Virus record (IMG/VR): IMGVR_UViG_3300047496_000047
Location: 1-61,811 of that record
DNA length: 61,811 nt
Reading direction: 5' to 3' (one strand)
Source of the DNA: a virus
The notes below the pieces were generated by a model. It was not told the DNA's origin, searched no databases, and saw only the letters and a program-made list of their open reading frames with translations. Position numbers and translations under genes: made by a program. Below are positions 18,074 to 31,842 of the stretch, piece after piece (the first letter of the stretch is position 1; every line of letters starts with the position of its first letter).

Positions 18074-18312
18074 TAGTTTATTTCCATTAGATAGAAGTCG
18101 ATTAAATCTATCGTATATTCTAAAAACTCTATCGCTTCTTTTGCCCTACAACTAGCACATCGGGATTTAGGTTCGTGATGAGCTCCTACGTAATCATTAG
18201 GACACGTACTATAGAAGTCATCAAGATCTGATGTTTCACAATCTGCTCCGTATCCTTCTTTGATAAGTTTAATCGCCTGCCTGTATATCCATTTCTCAAA
18301 TCGTTCCTTCAT
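18073..18312 (-). CDS. 79-aa hypothetical protein with Cys cluster
   Basis: The product has cysteines at CETSD, STCPND and SRCASCRAKE, enough for one zinc site, inside a helical frame. Its ATG lies 2 nt after the predicted tmRNA 3' end, so it is read from the same leftward transcript. Confidence 0.6.
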   Translation of the reverse strand: MKERFEKWIYRQAIKLIKEGYGADCETSDLDDFYSTCPNDYVGAHHEPKSRCASCRAKEAIEFLEYTIDLIDFYLMEIN

Positions 18313-18313
18313 G

Positions 18314-18674
18314 TGGACCCGGGGAGAATCGAACTCCCGTGCAACTCATTTCAAATAATGCATCTACGAAGACTAGTCTAATTGTTCCAATAGACGGGAA
18401 CTAACCGGGGTGTAATACCCATTGCGGGGATTTAGCAGGACTTCCACCAATTGCATTCTTATAACGCAGAGATAGGACTATTGCAATAAAGTTCCTATTC
18501 TACGGAAGGTTAGGCTGTTTTAAGAGCGAATCCTCCGACCGATCCTACTGTTGAGTAGAAAGGGCTTGTGATGCTTGAAGCAGCACTTATGTTTCCCACG
18601 ACTTTTTAGATTTCACGTGAGCTTAATCTCTTCGCACATTATTTGTCAATGAACTGTCTATGCCTATCGGGCCC
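18314..18674 (-). ncRNA. ssrA: Transfer-messenger RNA (tmRNA)
   Basis: Reading leftward, the 5' end GGGCCCG pairs with the 3' CGGGTCC (one G-U), followed by discriminator A; CCA is not encoded. The T arm is GGGAG-TTCGATT-CTCCC. Helix 2 is nine perfect pairs, CAAATAATG near the 5' end with CATTATTTG near the 3' end. The region ACTAGTCTTCGTAGATGCAT is typical of tmRNA 3' domains. An open tag frame runs after AAAAAGTC to a TAA and ends FALKTA, not the usual ALAA. tmRNA rescues stalled ribosomes by trans-translation. Phage copies are rare. Confidence 0.85.
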
Positions 18675-18831
18675 ATTTCCCTCTATATAATTGCAAGGAC
18701 TTCTTGCCTATTACAGATCCTAAAAAAGATCTAGAGGGAAGTCTCTGATTGATTGCGGGAGTTCGCCGGAACTATCTTTCGACAGGCAGTGCTTATTGAT
18801 TATTCACACCGCTCCAACAATCGAATCATAT
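18675..18831 (-). ncRNA. Structured linker RNA between tRNA-like gene and tmRNA
   Basis: Reading leftward, TTCCCTCTA pairs with TAGAGGGAA around two inner hairpins (GATC/GATC and GCAAG/CTTGC), forming a three-way junction that abuts the tmRNA 5' end. Upstream are CTGTC-GAAA-GATAG and GTTC-CGGC-GAAC hairpins. It may guide processing of the polycistronic RNA or be part of a larger RNA. I see no protein gene. Confidence 0.5.
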
Positions 18832-18900
18832 TGGGGAATCCGGATTTGCACCGGAGTCTCAAGGTTATGAGCCTTGCGAGAAACTACTTCTCCATCCCCC
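18832..18900 (-). tRNA. tRNA-like gene, anticodon CAT (Met or lysidine-Ile)
   Basis: The 69-nt sequence folds as a cloverleaf: GGGGGAT with ATTCCCC (one G-U), a D stem GAGAA/TTCTC, an anticodon arm CAAGG-CTCATAA-CCTTG and a T arm CCGG-TGCAAAT-CCGG. It is odd: the D loop is five bases and lacks the GG pair, and the T stem and acceptor compete for one A. It may be degenerate or a tRNA mimic. Confidence 0.65.
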
Positions 18901-18909
18901 GATACCGAA

Positions 18910-24390: not shown

Positions 24391-24931
24391 TTTTTTCTAT
24401 GAAGTTAATAACTGCGATTAATAAGTCCTGAGGATCATTCCTCGTATCTAACACTAATATCTTCTCTAACTTCGTCTCATTGATGAATCTTGTGTACCTA
24501 TCATGAAGCATTGCTATGTCCTCCAGAACAATATGATCGTCTCCTCTTTCCGCATATCGGTCTATGATAGTTTCAATAGGAGGTTGGCATATTATCATGT
24601 AGACTGGCTTATCAAGAAGTTTGAAGTATTTTTCGAATTCCCATATATCTGGATTGTCAAATGATTCATATCCTCTTTTTGCAGAATAGACAAGTTCTGA
24701 CGGATAATACCGATCAAGTATAACGATCTGATTCTCATTCTGATTGATGAACCCAAAGACAGACGAATACATATTCATCTTCTTTCTTATCTCTTCCCTC
24801 GATCCGTCCTTTGGTCTTGTCGTATCCTTAATGATGAATCCTCGGTATCTTTTTCCTATCAATTCGACAAGAGTAGACTTCCCTGCAAGATCCATCCCTT
24901 CGACTATGATGACTTTTCCTTTAGAGTCCAT
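24332..24931 (-). CDS. Thymidylate/deoxynucleoside monophosphate kinase
   Basis: The 199-aa product has a P-loop VEGMDLAGKST at residues 9-19, the substrate-site DTTRP and a DRYYPSELVY motif (DRY/H of thymidylate kinases), then a LID-like region near AERGDDH. It would phosphorylate dTMP or a modified dCMP made by the neighbouring TS-family enzyme. It overlaps the asparagine synthetase end by 11 nt. Confidence 0.8.
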   Translation of the reverse strand: MDSKGKVIIVEGMDLAGKSTLVELIGKRYRGFIIKDTTRPKDGSREEIRKKMNMYSSVFGFINQNENQIVILDRYYPSELVYSAKRGYESFDNPDIWEFEKYFKLLDKPVYMIICQPPIETIIDRYAERGDDHIVLEDIAMLHDRYTRFINETKLEKILVLDTRNDPQDLLIAVINFIEKNEYKRDNEPKQGTLFGGQA

Positions 24932-26618
24932 AGGATTTTATTATCTTATTTAATAAGTATAGATTCCATAATCCCCTCGCTGAGTTCCTTTCTGATAGAT
25001 GATCGTATCTGTATTTGATAGCGGAGATCTTTACTAAGTTCAGGGGATTAGAATAGATCTCTTCTTTGACTTTAGGATTCGTCACATACTTCTCATAAGG
25101 GATTTTTAATGCTCTCTTAGGAGTATCAAGAATCCAATCTGGGATCTTTCCTCTGAATGCTTCACGAAGAATCTTCTTCTCAGGACCAGACTTCATCTTA
25201 GCTGGAATGTCTAATGAAAGAGAAGTAACTCTATGATCAAGATATGGAACTCTAGCTTCGATTCCGAAACTCATCATCATCTTGTCGATCCTCATCGTAT
25301 GATAATAAGGGATCTCATTCATAAGATCCATCTCATTCAAGTAGTTATCGTCTCTCCCTGGAAGAATAGGATGCCTAAAACCAGAAGACTTAAACGGACT
25401 AACGAACTCATCTACTGAGAAGATTTCATAGAAGTCCTTCATTATCCTATCTACATTCAGCTGGTCTTCTTTCTTCCACTTCTCAAACTTCTGATATCTA
25501 GAATATCCTCCAAAACATTCATCTGCTCCCTCCCCTATCAATGTGACCTTCTCTTCGATGTTCTTAGCTAGAAAATAAGTAGGAATAAGACTTCCTTTGT
25601 CTGTGGGTTCTTCTATACGATCGATAATATCATCCATACTTTCAAAGATCTCTTCTTCTGTAATATGAATGTTAACTAGATCGATTCCATAGTGCTTAGC
25701 TACTTTCATAGCTTGAGTCACTTCATCATTTTCGTCTCCTTCCATTGAGAGACAATATGCTTTGAACTTTGCTCCGTGTTCTTTCATTAAGTGGCAGAGA
25801 ATAGAAGAATCTAGTCCTCCTGAAAGAGTCAAAGAGACCGGAACATCAGATATCAATCTCTCCTTCACCGATTCAGAGATAGCATCTGCAACATCTTCCT
25901 TGTCCACAAAGATATCTTTCTCCATCTGAACTTTTCTTCTTGATCCTGTTTTAGTCTTCAGATTGAATGTATAGATCTCTCCAGGAGGAAGAAGAAAGAT
26001 CTCTTCGAACGGAGTACCAGTATCAGGATTAAATCCATATTGAAGATAATTATAGAGTTCTTTTCTTTCTGGTACCCACTCTGCCAATTTAAGAATCGGA
26101 CGGATCTCAGAAGACATAACCAAGTCTCCATCTTTCTCACAGATATAGAGAGGCTTTACTCCAGAAGGATCTCTATATGCAATGATCTTTGTTGGAGTAA
26201 CTAGAACAAATGAGAATTCCCCATTTAGATTTCTAAGTCGTTCTCGAACAATGTCATTATCCCAATCTAGATAATTAACAAGATTCCTGAGAAGAACTTC
26301 AGTATCTCCTGTGGTAACAAGATCATCGAAGTCTGCACCTAGCTCTCTGTAGTTATAGATCTCTCCATTAAAGAGAAGCCAATATTCTCCTTCTTCGTCT
26401 TGGAATCCCATTGGCTGGGATGATCGATCGTCTAGGTCAAGAATCGACAAACGATTGTGTCCTAAGAAGATCGTATTCCCAAATCTTTTCTTTTTGATGA
26501 TCTTGGTATAGTCCGGTCCACCTCTTTCCATCATCTCGAGAGCTTCTATAAAAGTCTCTTGAACCAATGGTTCCTTCGTTGATTCGCTCCCCGTTGACGC
26601 TAGTAACAATCTGCACAT
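24921..26618 (-). CDS. asnB: Glutamine-dependent asparagine synthetase (AsnB type)
   Basis: I start at MCRLLLAS because the glutaminase nucleophile must be residue 2 after Met removal. The N-terminal Ntn half has RGGPDY, GHNRLSI, FNGEIYNYRE and GDTEVLL; the C-terminal half has the ATP pyrophosphatase motif SLTLSGGLDSSILC and GEGADECFGGYSRY. All key positions are present in 565 aa, so a working amidotransferase is expected. In a phage it could amidate a nucleotide, sugar or protein instead of free aspartate. The neighbours are nucleotide genes. Confidence 0.85.
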   Translation of the reverse strand: MCRLLLASTGSESTKEPLVQETFIEALEMMERGGPDYTKIIKKKRFGNTIFLGHNRLSILDLDDRSSQPMGFQDEEGEYWLLFNGEIYNYRELGADFDDLVTTGDTEVLLRNLVNYLDWDNDIVRERLRNLNGEFSFVLVTPTKIIAYRDPSGVKPLYICEKDGDLVMSSEIRPILKLAEWVPERKELYNYLQYGFNPDTGTPFEEIFLLPPGEIYTFNLKTKTGSRRKVQMEKDIFVDKEDVADAISESVKERLISDVPVSLTLSGGLDSSILCHLMKEHGAKFKAYCLSMEGDENDEVTQAMKVAKHYGIDLVNIHITEEEIFESMDDIIDRIEEPTDKGSLIPTYFLAKNIEEKVTLIGEGADECFGGYSRYQKFEKWKKEDQLNVDRIMKDFYEIFSVDEFVSPFKSSGFRHPILPGRDDNYLNEMDLMNEIPYYHTMRIDKMMMSFGIEARVPYLDHRVTSLSLDIPAKMKSGPEKKILREAFRGKIPDWILDTPKRALKIPYEKYVTNPKVKEEIYSNPLNLVKISAIKYRYDHLSERNSARGLWNLYLLNKIIKSYGL

Positions 26619-26622
26619 AGTA

Positions 26623-26883
26623 TTATTCTTTCTTCTGCCAATCAAGCCCTTTGACTTCAAGCTTGTCTTCTATCTGTTTCTTTCTATTCTCCTTATAATT
26701 AGGATCCAATGCCTTTCGATACTTGCTCAAACGAAGCTTCGCCCATGAGATAGCTTTCTTTGGATCTTGCTCTTTCATTGGGGGAACTTCATCTTCTGCA
26801 CTTCCTGATATGATCATGGAAACTATCTCATCATCCAAGAGACCTTTTTCTAACAACTTTTTGATGAACTGATTGCTGGTCAT
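26623..26883 (-). CDS. 86-aa hypothetical protein
   Basis: The product is helical, with an N-terminal helical segment (FIKKLLEKGLLDDEIVSMI) and a Lys-rich C-terminus. It overlaps the UDG-like gene by 4 nt. No family recognised. Confidence 0.55.
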   Translation of the reverse strand: MTSNQFIKKLLEKGLLDDEIVSMIISGSAEDEVPPMKEQDPKKAISWAKLRLSKYRKALDPNYKENRKKQIEDKLEVKGLDWQKKE

Positions 26884-27362
26884 TTGATGTCATGTAATGA
26901 ATTAATAAATCTTTCTTTATCGTCTTCTGATGCCCTACGAAGCCAAGAAGTATGGGGAAGACTTATGATGATTCTTGTCTTTCCGAAGGCTGCTTTCATT
27001 GTTCGTCTCCAGAGAGGAACCATAAAGACTTCAGCAACTTGTGATCCTAGAGTAACTATGAACTTCGGATCACATTCTTTTGCTTCCTCCTCCAATTCTG
27101 CAAACCCCTGTAGAATTTCCTCATCATCCAGAGGACGATTATTCGGGGTAGGAGACTTGTAGAGGTTCGTTAACCATACTTGCTCTTTCTTTATTCCTGC
27201 TTCATTTAAGATCCTTTCTAGATATCTTCCAAATATAGAATCCCAGCAATCGGTTGTTCTTGGAAATGCTTTTTCACTAGGATTGATTCCTATGATCATT
27301 ATTCCATGTTTTACTTTTACTGGTTCTAATCGGTACATATTAGTAGAGATTATGCGCTTCAT
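26880..27362 (-). CDS. Uracil-DNA glycosylase superfamily protein
   Basis: The 160-aa product contains IIGINPSEKA (motif 1 of the family 4/5-like glycosylases), WLTNLYKSPTPNNRPL, a VTLGSQVAEVF strand and SLPHTSWLRR (motif 2 with the catalytic-site His). It lacks the four cysteines of the family 4 iron-sulfur cluster. It may excise uracil or another odd base, or act on mismatches. Confidence 0.75.
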   Translation of the reverse strand: MKRIISTNMYRLEPVKVKHGIMIIGINPSEKAFPRTTDCWDSIFGRYLERILNEAGIKKEQVWLTNLYKSPTPNNRPLDDEEILQGFAELEEEAKECDPKFIVTLGSQVAEVFMVPLWRRTMKAAFGKTRIIISLPHTSWLRRASEDDKERFINSLHDIK

Positions 27363-27894: not shown

Positions 27895-28332
27895 TTAATA
27901 TCGAGGACCTGGGGTATCATCATCGTCTGGATAAGATATGTCGTCTGCAATATTCTTCTCCGGAGGATATGTTTTGGCTTCGATGTCTACCTTAATTACA
28001 GCTTTTCTAAGAAGGGAAAGGATCTCATCCAACTTGGTTCCGATTTGAACCATTCCTTCTCCTGACGGAGCAGCTGTTCTCTTTGGAGGAGGAACAAGAT
28101 TATAGGATGTAAAGATCCTTGATCCTACTGTTTTTGTCTCGATTGTATATTTGATGTCTATTGTCTTTCCAATCTCGAATCGATCATTAACTTCTTTAAA
28201 CAGAGTCTGATATTTGATCCCGTCATTACCGAAGATTTCATATGCTATGAAAGGAGTAAATACCTTTCCTCCTGGTTTAGGATTGACTGGCCTCTGATTG
28301 AGATTGATGACTGTGATTGTTTTATCTTGCAT
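27895..28332 (-). CDS. SSB-like OB-fold protein candidate
   Basis: The 145-aa product opens with beta strands (TITVINLNQRPVNPKPGG, FTPFIAYEIFG), a basic middle and an acidic C-terminal tail (DDISYPDDDDTPGPRY). Acidic tails recruit partners in single-strand-binding proteins. It lies next to the nuclease gene in a replication operon. The tail does not end in the classical DIPF, so the call rests on layout. Confidence 0.5.
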   Translation of the reverse strand: MQDKTITVINLNQRPVNPKPGGKVFTPFIAYEIFGNDGIKYQTLFKEVNDRFEIGKTIDIKYTIETKTVGSRIFTSYNLVPPPKRTAAPSGEGMVQIGTKLDEILSLLRKAVIKVDIEAKTYPPEKNIADDISYPDDDDTPGPRY

Positions 28333-29284
28333 TTCTTCTTGGTGCTATTGTTTTATTAAGTTCTTCGACCTTCTTGTAAGCCTTGTCTTTCCAAGCAGGA
28401 TCCCCTGTGCAATGGACATGATATCTGCACCAATCTGCTTGGTAGTTAAGCTGCCATCGATTTGTTCTAGAATTCTTTATTATATCAGGAACAGAAGGGG
28501 GAGGAGTCTTATCCTCTACACACTTATTAATCAAATCCCAAACTTTCTGGAGAGAGTCGATTGTTTCTTGTTTATAATCGACATTGAACTCCAAGAGGCT
28601 TTGATATGCTGTTTCTGAATAAAGAACTCTACCAATAATCCATGGGTACTTCTCTCTAAGCTTCCACATATAAAACATTAATTGTTTCTCATGTTCAGGA
28701 AGAGATTTTCCTTCTTTTTGTCGATACTCGAATCCCCATTCGCTGATACTCTTGATCTCCAATACCATGATCGAATTCTTAGGATCAGGAATGAGGAGCT
28801 GTTCATTGAGTTTTTTATCTTCTTCTTTAAGACGATTCATGAGGAGATCGAGCTCGGTCTTTCTAAACCAATCACACTTAGCTTCATAGTCTGCTAACTG
28901 TTTAGAATATTCGGATAAAGCAAAGAAGATTGCAGTCTTTCTTCTAATCTTCACTTTAGCTTCATCTGTACATGCTTCAGGAGAAATGATGATTCCATCT
29001 GGTCTTCCTGATACATTGAATTTTTCATCAAAGATTCTATCTTGTCCTCCTAAGAAGATTCCTTGTGACTTAAGTTTCTTAACTAGATTCTCTTCTACCA
29101 TCTTTCCTACTTCCATTCGCCTAAGATTCTTAGCAGGAATCGGTCCATCTGGTTTAGCTCCGAGTAAAGCATGATATACCCCGCTTAAGCACTTATCAGC
29201 ATCAGTCGCGTAGATATGTTTCTTATCCCATTCCTCATTATCGAGAGAAAGATCTTGAAGTGATTTGATGGACCAGTTATTCAT
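28322..29284 (-). CDS. PD-(D/E)XK nuclease (Cas4/RecB-like)
   Basis: The 320-aa product has the nuclease core: an N-terminal helix with E (EVGKMVEENLV), the GRPDGIIISPE strand, VLEIKSISEWGF (the E-x-K) and a QLMFYMWKL motif (Q-x3-Y). A probable role is 5' end processing or recombination during replication. No Cas genes or array are present. Cysteines at CTDEA, CDWFR, CRYHVHC could hold a cluster as in Cas4, but the spacing is not canonical. Confidence 0.8.
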   Translation of the reverse strand: MNNWSIKSLQDLSLDNEEWDKKHIYATDADKCLSGVYHALLGAKPDGPIPAKNLRRMEVGKMVEENLVKKLKSQGIFLGGQDRIFDEKFNVSGRPDGIIISPEACTDEAKVKIRRKTAIFFALSEYSKQLADYEAKCDWFRKTELDLLMNRLKEEDKKLNEQLLIPDPKNSIMVLEIKSISEWGFEYRQKEGKSLPEHEKQLMFYMWKLREKYPWIIGRVLYSETAYQSLLEFNVDYKQETIDSLQKVWDLINKCVEDKTPPPSVPDIIKNSRTNRWQLNYQADWCRYHVHCTGDPAWKDKAYKKVEELNKTIAPRRNAR

Positions 29285-29294
29285 TCAGTTTGGA

Positions 29295-29450
29295 TTAGTC
29301 GATTAAGTCGTCTTGTGTTTCTGCCCAGAAGACATATGGATCAAAGTCTCCTGGGATTCCTTCAATGTCTTTTTCCTTCGGATTACTGGCAATATACCAT
29401 TCTCTTCCTCCTTCAAACCATGCTTCGAATTGATCGTCAAAGTAACTCAT
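29295..29450 (-). CDS. 51-aa acidic hypothetical protein
   Basis: The ORF begins MSYFDDQFEAWFEGGREWYI and ends AETQDDLID; it is acidic and Trp/Tyr-rich. Its ATG overlaps the end of the E1-like gene by 4 nt, so it may be co-translated with the Ubl operon. No family recognised. Confidence 0.6.
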   Translation of the reverse strand: MSYFDDQFEAWFEGGREWYIASNPKEKDIEGIPGDFDPYVFWAETQDDLID

Positions 29451-30316
29451 GATAGCATCATCTGAAGAGTATCAATATGGAAGAGTATATTCTTTCTGAA
29501 TTTCTCTTCTTTAAGGAATCTCTTCGTCTGATTCGCTATCAAAGCTCCCATTACCATTGAGATATAACAGATGTACCTAGCTCCACAGGGATCACTTGAA
29601 GGATTATCCGAAAAGGTCTTTACCCATTCTTCAAATTGAGTGAAGGTATAAATCTCAAGCTGAGGTCCTCCCATTCTACCATCAATGATGAGATCTGGCA
29701 TTATTTCTCCTTTCTCGATATTGTCATGGATCTTTCTTCGTTCTTTCATCGAGTCTACTGCCATGATCAGAATACCACCTTGGAACTCTTTTCCTGAGAA
29801 CTTCTCATCAAAAACCCTTACAACTGCCTTTGGGTTAATTGCTAAGATCTGTTCTTTCATAGCATATACCTTGGGAACCTTATTATGAATTACGAAGAAC
29901 GACTGGCTGCTCAGATTATGAGCTTCTACTATATCGTGGTCATAGAGAAGGAACTCTGAGATTCCTAGTCTAGCAAGAGCTACTGCTGCTTGGGACCCAA
30001 TGTTCCCGATGCCAACAATCGAGATTGGTATTTGCCTTTCTTCTTGTGGCGAGAATATTTCCCTTTGTCTTTTCCAATCAATACTACCTCGTGAGTGTCG
30101 TCCTCCAGATCCTCTTGTCTCGCTGGAACCCCGTCGCTGTTCTCTCCGTGATGGAAGTATCTGCTCACCGTTTCGTCGTCCTCGTCGTCTGCTTGTTCCC
30201 CTGGATAGTTCCTTTCCCACCATTTCTTTCCCCATCCCTTTTCTCTCTTTTTCCCGTCGTAGTTGTACCCTGACGACTGCCTTGTCTTTACCTTTTCGGT
30301 GATCTCTTTCTTGCAT
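29447..30316 (-). CDS. ThiF/E1-like Ubl-activating enzyme
   Basis: The E1 domain starts at about residue 95 of this open frame: ISIVGIGNIGSQ (ATP-binding GxGxxG), LLYDHDIVEAHNLSSQ (Asp binding ATP), a Lys at KVYAMKEQ, AVDSMKERRK and DPCGARYIC, where Cys244 or Cys250 is the candidate thioester residue. There are no CxxC zinc pairs. The first 80-90 codons overlap the JAB gene and read as Arg-rich low complexity. The last ATG/GTG before the domain is at about residue 32-33, so either this basic tail is used or the domain is made as a JAB-E1 fusion by -1 slippage. Confidence 0.8.
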   Translation of the reverse strand: MQERDHRKGKDKAVVRVQLRREKERKGMGKEMVGKELSRGTSRRRGRRNGEQILPSRREQRRGSSETRGSGGRHSRGSIDWKRQREIFSPQEERQIPISIVGIGNIGSQAAVALARLGISEFLLYDHDIVEAHNLSSQSFFVIHNKVPKVYAMKEQILAINPKAVVRVFDEKFSGKEFQGGILIMAVDSMKERRKIHDNIEKGEIMPDLIIDGRMGGPQLEIYTFTQFEEWVKTFSDNPSSDPCGARYICYISMVMGALIANQTKRFLKEEKFRKNILFHIDTLQMMLS

Positions 30317-30789
30317 AGATCCTTAAGCTCTAAATCCTCTCCTTCTAATGTAATGATGTTAAGATCCTCTACTTTATGTCGTATTGGATCAAACAAGTCG
30401 AACCTTGCCTTCATCTCATGCTTGTGATTAGTTACTAGAGAGATCAACCAAGGAAACTCAGTTGATGCATCAATAGTTCCTGTATCTGTTCCTGAGAAGA
30501 ACACGCTCATTGCTGCATGAGAATGCCACCAAAAACGATATTCTGAAAGCTTCTTTTCCCCTGCTTTCATTTTATCGAATAGGAACTTTGCTAGAGTCTC
30601 CTGTTCGATCGTGCTGTGTGCTGATGAAACTACCTGGTCAAAGATCTCAAGATCATGGACAATAAACTGGGTTTCCCCACCTGCTGCCTTGACCGCTGTT
30701 ACCTTTCCTAATCCAGAAATCTCATCAGGGCACTGAGATACGTAGTATCCCATCTTCTTCTTTGCATATGCCGTGATGTATAGATTCAT
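29980..30789 (-). CDS. JAB/MPN (JAMM) metallopeptidase, deubiquitinase-like
   Basis: The 269-aa product carries the full JAMM motif: Glu23 in DEISG, then H89-S-H91, seven residues, S99, two residues, D102 (HSHAAMSVFFSGTD). Such enzymes use zinc to cut isopeptide or peptide bonds after a Ubl C-terminus. From residue 155 the protein is charged and low complexity, probably a flexible linker. Lying between E2-like and E1-like genes, it should mature the Ubl (removing ISTIN) and/or remove it from targets. Its 3' 337 nt overlap the E1 frame. Confidence 0.88.
   Translation of the reverse strand: MNLYITAYAKKKMGYYVSQCPDEISGLGKVTAVKAAGGETQFIVHDLEIFDQVVSSAHSTIEQETLAKFLFDKMKAGEKKLSEYRFWWHSHAAMSVFFSGTDTGTIDASTEFPWLISLVTNHKHEMKARFDLFDPIRHKVEDLNIITLEGEDLELKDLCKKEITEKVKTRQSSGYNYDGKKREKGWGKKWWERNYPGEQADDEDDETVSRYFHHGENSDGVPARQEDLEDDTHEVVLIGKDKGKYSRHKKKGKYQSRLLASGTLGPKQQ
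30070..30075 (-). promoter_or_regulatory. Candidate -1 slip point in JAB-E1 overlap
   Basis: In the JAB frame the codons are GGA AAA GAC. The AAA codon can slip back one base onto A-AA, after which the frame reads directly into the E1 domain (Q-R-E-I-F-S-P...VGIGNIG). It is a single-codon slip, weaker than a canonical heptamer. Confidence 0.35.
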
Positions 30790-30797
30790 GATGTTAA

Positions 30798-31583
30798 TTA
30801 TAGCTGATCCTCTTCTTCCTCGTCATCTTCGTCCTCTCCATCCCAATCTTCATTGTCTTCATTCTCAGTAGTTACTATCCCGTCCGCTTCTAGAGATTCT
30901 TTCTCTGAATCGTTCGAGGGGACTTTTTTTTTCAGGTATTTAATCCAATTTGGCTTCCTCATATAAGCATTAGTATCTCCTGCCATCGTGAGAAATCTGA
31001 TCCATGAATCTGCTAAGAGATATATCTCGAACTCCTTTGCATAGTTCATAATCCCAGTAGACCAGTCTCCCATACATGGCTTTCCTTCGTGGACTGCCCA
31101 GTGAGCTTTAGAGGGTTCCTGAGAATGAATATATGTTTTGTTTCTGATCTCAAAAGACTTAGAACTTGGAGAATACTTAATGACATATTTTCCAATAGCA
31201 TCTTTTCCTGACTTGAGATTCTTCGTATGAATATGAATCCTATTGTCAGTTCCTATAAAGATCTTTTCAATAGAAGAATGATTCTGAATCTTATCCTTAA
31301 TAAGATCATCCTCTACTTCTCTTCTATCTAGAGATTCTAGGATCTTCTGGTCTTTTGCAATCGCTCCTATCAACTGGCGAACGCTTGATTCTGCTAACTT
31401 TATGTAATCTTCTCTTGGATAACCCTCAAAGGTATTTCCCCTAGTCACTTTGAGCCTTGAGAGATTATCTTTCCAGCGTTCAATGTCTTTCTCCTTAGAA
31501 GCAATCCTTCGAGAAGATTCATCTCGAGTCACCTTCGTGATCTCTCTAAACCAGTTCTTGAAGGATTTGCTTCTTCGGGGCAT
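30798..31583 (-). CDS. E2-like (UBC-fold) Ubl-conjugating protein candidate
   Basis: I start at MPRRSKSFKNWF, 1 nt after the Ubl stop (261 aa). Residues 1-105 are helical. Residues 110-200 alternate strands (RIHIHTKNL, GKYVIKYSP, SFEIRNKTYIHS) and then give HWAVHEGKPCMGDW: the His-rich turn, Gly and Cys170 resemble the active site of prokaryotic E2-like proteins, where the Cys follows the third-fourth strand. A helix (YAKEFEIYLLADSWI) follows. The C-terminus is strongly acidic. The E2 call rests on this local pattern and on the operon. Confidence 0.65.
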   Translation of the reverse strand: MPRRSKSFKNWFREITKVTRDESSRRIASKEKDIERWKDNLSRLKVTRGNTFEGYPREDYIKLAESSVRQLIGAIAKDQKILESLDRREVEDDLIKDKIQNHSSIEKIFIGTDNRIHIHTKNLKSGKDAIGKYVIKYSPSSKSFEIRNKTYIHSQEPSKAHWAVHEGKPCMGDWSTGIMNYAKEFEIYLLADSWIRFLTMAGDTNAYMRKPNWIKYLKKKVPSNDSEKESLEADGIVTTENEDNEDWDGEDEDDEEEEDQL

Positions 31584-31584
31584 A

Positions 31585-31842
31585 CTAGTTGATTGTGGAG
31601 ATTCCACCAGCCTGCTTAGGGGAAACGATCTGAAGTGTATCGCCATCCTCGAGGATATCGTTCAGATTAGCTCGCTCACTGTCTACCCAGATATTCTCTG
31701 TTGAACTAGTTCGGATGCCAGCTTTTGTAAGGGCATCAGCAACTGTCGAGTTCTCTGGGATTCTTACCGTCTGAAGATCATGACCGAAACGTCCGATCTG
31801 AACTTCAATAAGGTTGTCTGTACCATCATCTGCATGTCTCAT
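31585..31842 (-). CDS. Ubiquitin-like beta-grasp protein with GG motif
   Basis: The 85-aa product reads as a beta grasp: strands LIEVQIGRFG and LQTVRIPE, a helix STVADALTKAGI, then IWVDSERANL, LEDGDTLQIV, ending SPKQAGG followed by ISTIN. The GD-x-L-x-I strand before a terminal GG is shared by ThiS/MoaD and ubiquitin-like modifiers. A five-residue extension after GG would need trimming before E1 could activate it, and a JAB peptidase is encoded two genes on. It is the first gene of the four-gene operon. Confidence 0.82.
   Translation of the reverse strand: MRHADDGTDNLIEVQIGRFGHDLQTVRIPENSTVADALTKAGIRTSSTENIWVDSERANLNDILEDGDTLQIVSPKQAGGISTIN

Follow-up and report, generated by a model that had tools for sequence, protein, structure and literature searches.

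A predicted ubiquitin-like conjugation module carried by tailed phages

The window analyzed here is the whole 61,811-base stretch of an IMG/VR virus record (IMGVR_UViG_3300047496_000047), and its minus strand carries, at positions 29447-31842, a module encoding a beta-grasp ubiquitin-like modifier (Ubl), an E2-like protein, a JAB peptidase and a ThiF/E1 enzyme. We consider it probable that these four genes make up a complete and reversible Ubl-conjugation pathway of a tailed phage, most likely acting at the replication stage. Leave-one-out profiles, built without the window from 59 Ubls, 28 E2 cores, 105 JABs and 105 E1s, matched only the four open reading frames (ORFs) of the module among the 586 stop-to-stop ORFs of the window, with expectation (E) values over those 586 ORFs of 1.4e-17 for the Ubl, 3.3e-11 for the E2, 6.2e-60 for the JAB and 1.1e-63 for the E1. 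These four matches are far beyond chance. A first-pass annotation, made from the sequence alone, had placed four leftward ORFs at exactly these positions and had proposed that they form a phage-borne conjugation operon, a proposal now supported by the profiles, the conservation of catalytic residues, AlphaFold2 models and conserved synteny.

Conjugation of Ubls in prokaryotes is known mainly from bacteria, where it is often part of antiphage defence, whereas here the full cascade is carried by phages. No description of a complete phage-encoded cascade was found in a search limited to open-access literature. In the consulted passages of a 2006 survey of prokaryotic Ubls, phages are discussed only for the tail protein TAPI (PMC1779556).

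Components of the module

The Ubl (31585-31842, minus strand, as for all components below) has 85 amino acids and ends in ...SPKQAGGISTIN. Its AlphaFold2 model, with a predicted local distance difference test (pLDDT) score of 84, shows the order beta-beta-alpha-beta-beta-beta of a beta-grasp fold, and Foldseek matched this model to SUMO, TtuB, SAMP1 and the C. subterraneum ubiquitin; the beta-grasp protein ending in AGG-ISTIN, for which the first-pass annotation had named structure prediction as the check in advance, was thereby borne out. In the search of PDB with the family profile, MoaD and ThiS led the matches, and Pfam ThiS matched 8 of 17 family members. The modifier carries the C-terminal glycine characteristic of Ubl-conjugation systems, as Gly79-Gly80 (31603-31608), followed by a putative propeptide, ISTIN (31588-31602), which the JAB is predicted to cut off. 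A late GG is found in 55/60 unique family Ubls. What follows it is in most cases one or two residues and in some a longer, unrelated tail, so that tail length and sequence differ among relatives. As the Ubls of the nearest relatives (loci L004 and L006) end at KQAG without a tail and the window Ubl reads KQAGGISTIN, the mature window Ubl may end in either KQAG or KQAGG. In crAss-like phages, the Ubl domain is apparently the N-terminal part of a longer protein, with IKSGA at the position of the GG.

The JAB/JAMM metallopeptidase (29980-30789) has 269 amino acids and was recognized by its leave-one-out profile and by a PDB profile search, in addition to a Pfam Prok-JAB match below the cut-off (1.1e-3). 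The perfect HxHx7Sx2D motif named in the first-pass annotation is present as the JAMM zinc/catalytic motif H89-S-H91-x7-S99-x2-D102 (HSHAAMSVFFSGTD, 30484-30525), and it is kept in 105 of the 106 unique family members. The PDB chains matched by the family profile include the Caldiarchaeum Rpn11 homologue, CSN5 and JAMM1, which are deconjugating proteases. When the JAB alignment was run against 84,980 genomes of bacteria and archaea, it yielded one relative, on a Pacearchaeota contig, so within the reach of that pattern search this type of JAB is mainly viral.

The E1 is a ThiF-type adenylating enzyme (Pfam ThiF, 6.3e-18) whose core spans residues 79-289 of the ORF at 29447-30316, or positions 29447-30082. 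The domain and the GIGNIG motif read earlier from the sequence are both there, but the first 78 or so residues of the ORF are out-of-frame JAB sequence, the JAB and E1 reading frames overlapping at 29980-30316; homology to other E1s begins at I79 (base 30082), with GAGG four bases upstream. The ATP-binding GxGxxG (GIGNIG, within VGIGNIGS; 29996-30013) is nearly fixed, its first two glycines occurring in 103/103 unique family members and its third in 102/103, and D126, D128, N134, K149 and D188 are invariant in all 103. Cys244 (29585-29587), in the crossover-loop region, is the candidate thioester cysteine, a cysteine being present at this position in 102 of the 103. The closest PDB match of the E1 profile was UBA5, the E1 of UFM1 (2.8e-17), which resembles the phage enzyme as a compact, noncanonical E1; unlike UBA5, the phage core has about 210 residues, roughly half the UBA5 length.

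The E2-like protein (AHWAVHEGKPCMGDW, 30798-31583) has 261 amino acids, arranged as an N-terminal coiled coil (residues 8-100), a UBC-like core (about 105-222) and an acidic tail. Its predicted catalytic residue is Cys170, in a CMG (31074-31076), which aligns with the catalytic cysteine of UBE2L3 and is kept in all 79 full-length relatives, usually as CxG; the five entries of the alignment that lack it are short ORFs close to the ends of contigs. In the AHWAVHEGKPC motif, His161 (31101-31103) occupies the place of the HPN motif of E2s, where relatives show HPH/HPN/HPY/HPF[I/V]...G..C. As in ubiquitin E2s, HP[H/N/F/Y][I/V] usually precedes the cysteine in these relatives, several of which have the eukaryotic-E2 spacing from His to Cys, for example HPNVTLNGHVCFG in locus L062 and HPHINSYGYICYG in locus L009.

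Pfam, NCBIfam, PHROGs and PADLOC gave no name for the window E2, its Pfam match not being meaningful, and UQ_con matched 3/33 members of the family with a best value of 0.0044. A profile search of PDB with the full-length family alignment was also without success. The E2 core, the conserved block around the cysteine, was chosen after that failure, and every one of the 60 chains listed for its profile is an E2 enzyme, the best match being UBE2L3 at E = 0.0038; in these alignments the HPN-like motif and the cysteine match up with those of the E2 enzymes. The AlphaFold2 model (pLDDT 81) has a long N-terminal coiled coil followed by a UBC-like strand meander, Cys loop and helices. A UBC-type E2 with a catalytic cysteine is thus supported at the family level by a sequence profile, and the E2 is the weakest of the four calls.

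Related phage loci and gene order

Comparison of the window with phage records at the DNA level gave no relatives, nor did scans of IMG/VR that used any of the four module proteins as a single query; relatives were obtained through alignment-based scans. With tblastn, Flavobacterium phage FpV4 and Dulem virus 41 were found to encode an E2-like protein, JAB and E1 in adjacent genes that keep the window order and follow a Ubl-like gene. Alignments seeded by these two phages recovered at least 294 related JAB loci in IMG/VR, 80 of which were kept, and an E1 alignment recovered 44 loci, some on contigs already found. The E1 alignment was itself built from JAB-selected loci, and the two sets are not fully independent. 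Synteny was counted in loci with at least 3 kb on either side, some duplicate or near-identical contigs included.

In 37 such loci selected by the JAB, the E1 was present in all 37, the E2 in 36 and the Ubl in 33. The order Ubl-E2-JAB-E1, which the first-pass annotation had called unusual, is the commonest among these loci (29/37), so for this phage family that description was wrong. Selection by the E1 (35 loci) gave a JAB in 34, an E2 in 25 and a Ubl in 18; a permuted order, E1-Ubl-E2-JAB, was also seen. Loci L096, L103 and L095 include clusters with a second E1-like ORF or with two JAB-like ORFs.

The four-gene set is also found in crAss001 (gp79-gp76), DAC15, cr85_1 and bajarodcaudo virus 1, where the JAB and E1 were identified by profile match and the E2 and Ubl by position and sequence reading. 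Cultured carriers include crAss001 (on Bacteroides intestinalis), DAC15 (B. thetaiotaomicron) and FpV4 (Flavobacterium psychrophilum), and these gut and fish-pathogen phages make viral ubiquitin-like signalling in bacteria directly testable. Records of these cultured phages label the module genes "thiamine biosynthesis protein", "metalloprotease domain containing protein" or hypothetical. The genome papers on crAss001 and on crAss-like phages mention neither ThiF nor ubiquitin in their main text. In the cultured phages, an uncharacterized gene directly follows the E1 (crAss001 gp75, L129:8351-9163, with equivalents in FpV4, DAC15 and cr85_1), and this gene could be a fifth component.

Three further loci extend the range of arrangements. 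The Xanthomonas jumbo phage PhiXhv-12 (L133:2751-6627) encodes a Ubl-like protein ending exactly in GG, an E2-like protein of 892 residues with HPHMAVPSSQESHGSLCLG, and an E1; genes for DNA ligase and topoisomerase are nearby. In this single case, read by eye, no JAB gene lies between or beside the other three, which is consistent with removal of the Ubl tail being one role of the JAB elsewhere. A human gut phage (MT835544, L134:3191-8225) has a small Ubl-like protein ending in NALAA rather than GG, then an E2-like protein, JAB, E1 and a reverse-transcriptase-like ORF. On the Candidatus Pacearchaeota contig (L128:4878-9800), a similar order is formed by a small protein ending in EGGLASLLQ, a 468-residue protein, a JAB (HSHATMPTFHSGTD) and a 641-residue E1 with two ThiF-like units.

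Proposed pathway and alternative explanations

The components, their families and catalytic residues, their synteny and their replication context are what the analysis shows, whereas the biochemical steps, taken from the known biochemistry of these families, and the targets are what we infer. In the proposed pathway, the JAB would cut ISTIN off the Ubl, exposing the C-terminal glycine, and the E1 would bind ATP, adenylate this glycine and form a thioester with the Ubl, Cys244 being the probable site. Transfer of the Ubl to the E2 residue Cys170 would follow, and it would then be joined to lysines of target proteins, from which the JAB could also take it back off. Target choice is probably the task of the long coiled coil at the N terminus of the E2. 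The likeliest targets are replication or recombination proteins of the phage, or host proteins engaged at the replication stage, given the frequent location of the module among genes for replication and recombination in diverse phages. The first-pass annotation had suggested host, rival-phage or virion proteins as targets; the gene surroundings favour the stage of DNA replication instead.

In 119 module-neighbour proteins of the relatives, the domains identified by Pfam include DnaB helicase (DnaB_C) 15 times, AAA_24 12 times, AAA_25 10 times, ERF 6 times, PriCT_1 4 times, uracil-DNA glycosylase 3 times, and RecA and SSB (single-stranded DNA-binding protein) once each, as raw counts uncorrected for background frequency. 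In crAss001 and FpV4, a toprim/primase gene lies upstream of the module and a uracil-DNA glycosylase gene on one side or the other. In the window, a uracil-DNA glycosylase superfamily gene (26880-27362, minus strand; PF03167, 6.3e-17) is likewise close to the module, as it is in locus L008, and the other neighbours outside the cascade include a Cas4/RecB-like nuclease (28322-29284, minus strand; PF01930, 6.9e-4, below the family cut-off), a thymidylate kinase and a DNA methylase. The terminase and portal genes are about 9 kb or more away, on the other strand.

Several observations weigh against a complete pathway acting at the replication stage. Foldseek searches with the window E2 model returned only non-significant matches, mostly to coiled coils, an outcome apparently due to the two long coiled-coil helices that dominate it, and for this reason the UBC assignment draws mainly on the family sequence profile. 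The first-pass annotation had staked its reading on a UBC fold at 30798-31583; the order of strands, Cys loop and helices in the AlphaFold2 model and the E2 matches of the family profile agree with this fold, but the structural comparison added no significant match. In addition, the window E2 has HW where most relatives read HP. In the E1, which otherwise has an intact ATP site and the conserved cysteine, the usual arginine of NxxRQ is absent, the sequence being NLSSQ in the window and NTGGQ and NMAGQ in FpV4 and Dulem virus 41. At the point where homology begins, the window E1 also has ATT in place of a standard ATG, GTG or TTG start; translation may begin at this rare codon or farther upstream, or the sequence may be in error. 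In the E1-selected loci, no E2 was detected in 10/35 and no Ubl in 17/35, through either divergence or absence. Finally, the assignment of replication-stage targets is a leading guess that comes from gene neighbourhood alone.

A more specific form of the proposal is that a large set of otherwise diverse tailed phages shares a SUMO-like system for their own replisomes, in which placing the Ubl on helicase, SSB or recombination proteins, and taking it off, would control replication or recombination. We offer this tentatively, as it is rather less likely than otherwise; if true, full E1-E2-JAB-Ubl cascades would have a major and old reservoir in viral lineages, and these would be more than mere targets of such cascades. 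A similarly uncertain possibility is that the cascade serves offence or counter-defence, tagging host defence proteins, host replication proteins or competing phages. Related bacterial systems, Bil and CBASS Cap2, do work in phage-host conflict (PMC12135933, PMC12355090), although the siting of the module among replication genes and its retention across diverse phages are more typical of a core function than of an accessory role against defences.

Alternatively, the Ubl could be a sulfur carrier of the ThiS/MoaD type, on which the E1 would make a thiocarboxylate for a sulfur-containing cofactor or modified nucleotide, with trimming by the JAB. ThiS is the top Pfam match of the window Ubl (E = 0.001, below the cut-off), the E1 is close to ThiF, the window phage encodes nucleotide-metabolism enzymes, and sulfur-assimilation clusters of ThiS/MoaD, JAB and E1 are described in the 2006 survey (PMC1779556). 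However, the set includes an E2-like protein with an invariant cysteine and HPN-like motif, which sulfur transfer does not need, and no sulfurtransferase appears among the 25 of 59 neighbour families listed, and we regard a sulfur carrier as improbable. There is equally little likelihood that the Ubl is put on structural proteins during virion assembly, in line with the arrangement predicted for lambda TAPI/TAPK, TAPI being a known phage Ubl with a JAB partner (PMC1779556), or with Bil, which is described as acting on phage tails (PMC12135933), since the window module lies among replication and nucleotide-metabolism genes distant from terminase and portal, and its relatives share the replication context.

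Comparison with known systems and other features of the window

The closest likeness in gene content is to Bil (BilABCD), in which a Ubl, E2, JAB peptidase and E1 are likewise four genes of one operon (PMC11354881). BilA has two Ubl domains, whereas the window Ubl has one, and Bil is a bacterial defence operon, whereas the present module is phage-encoded beside replication genes. The PADLOC Bil models matched neither the window Ubl, E2 and JAB nor the 33 family E2s, and the window E1 matched BilD weakly (1.8e-4). The cyclic-oligonucleotide-based antiphage signalling system (CBASS) Cap2/Cap3 and 6A-MBL share with the module a related E1 domain (PADLOC E1-E2, 8.1e-15; NF058523, 2.1e-12) and E2 and JAB activities. 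In the module, unlike these systems, the E2, E1 and JAB are separate proteins and are accompanied by a beta-grasp Ubl; neither a CD-NTase nor an MBL partner was found among the ten module neighbours searched.

The PRTRC cassette (Prok-E2_D, PRTRC A/B/C/ThiF) also brings together Ubl, E2-like, JAB and ThiF proteins, and we take it to be operon type 6d of the 2006 survey. Membership in PRTRC was rejected on NCBIfam scores, PRTRC_A reaching 12.6 bits against a cut-off of 101.8 and PRTRC_ThiF 23.8 against 144.75. In the survey, the standalone-Ubl operon type 6d lacks the usual E2 histidine (PMC1779556), whereas the HPH/HPN motif is conserved in the present phage family. The TAPI-TAPK pair of phages lambda and T1 resembles the module as a phage Ubl with a JAB partner; it differs in lying among tail genes, in the fusion of its JAB to NlpC/P60 and in having no E1 or E2 described in the survey (PMC1779556). 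The window JAB, in its replication context, gave no NlpC/P60 match.

In a promoter and terminator scan of the module region, sites were no more numerous than in shuffles. An asparagine synthase with a glutamine amidotransferase domain is encoded at 24921-26660 (minus strand), near the thymidylate kinase and DNA methylase, and is possibly linked to nucleotide or DNA modification. Further along the same strand, the window carries a transfer-messenger RNA gene at 18311-18674 (Rfam RF00023, 57.7 bits, above the gathering score) and a tRNA-Met gene at 18831-18901, which together suggest a bacterial host.

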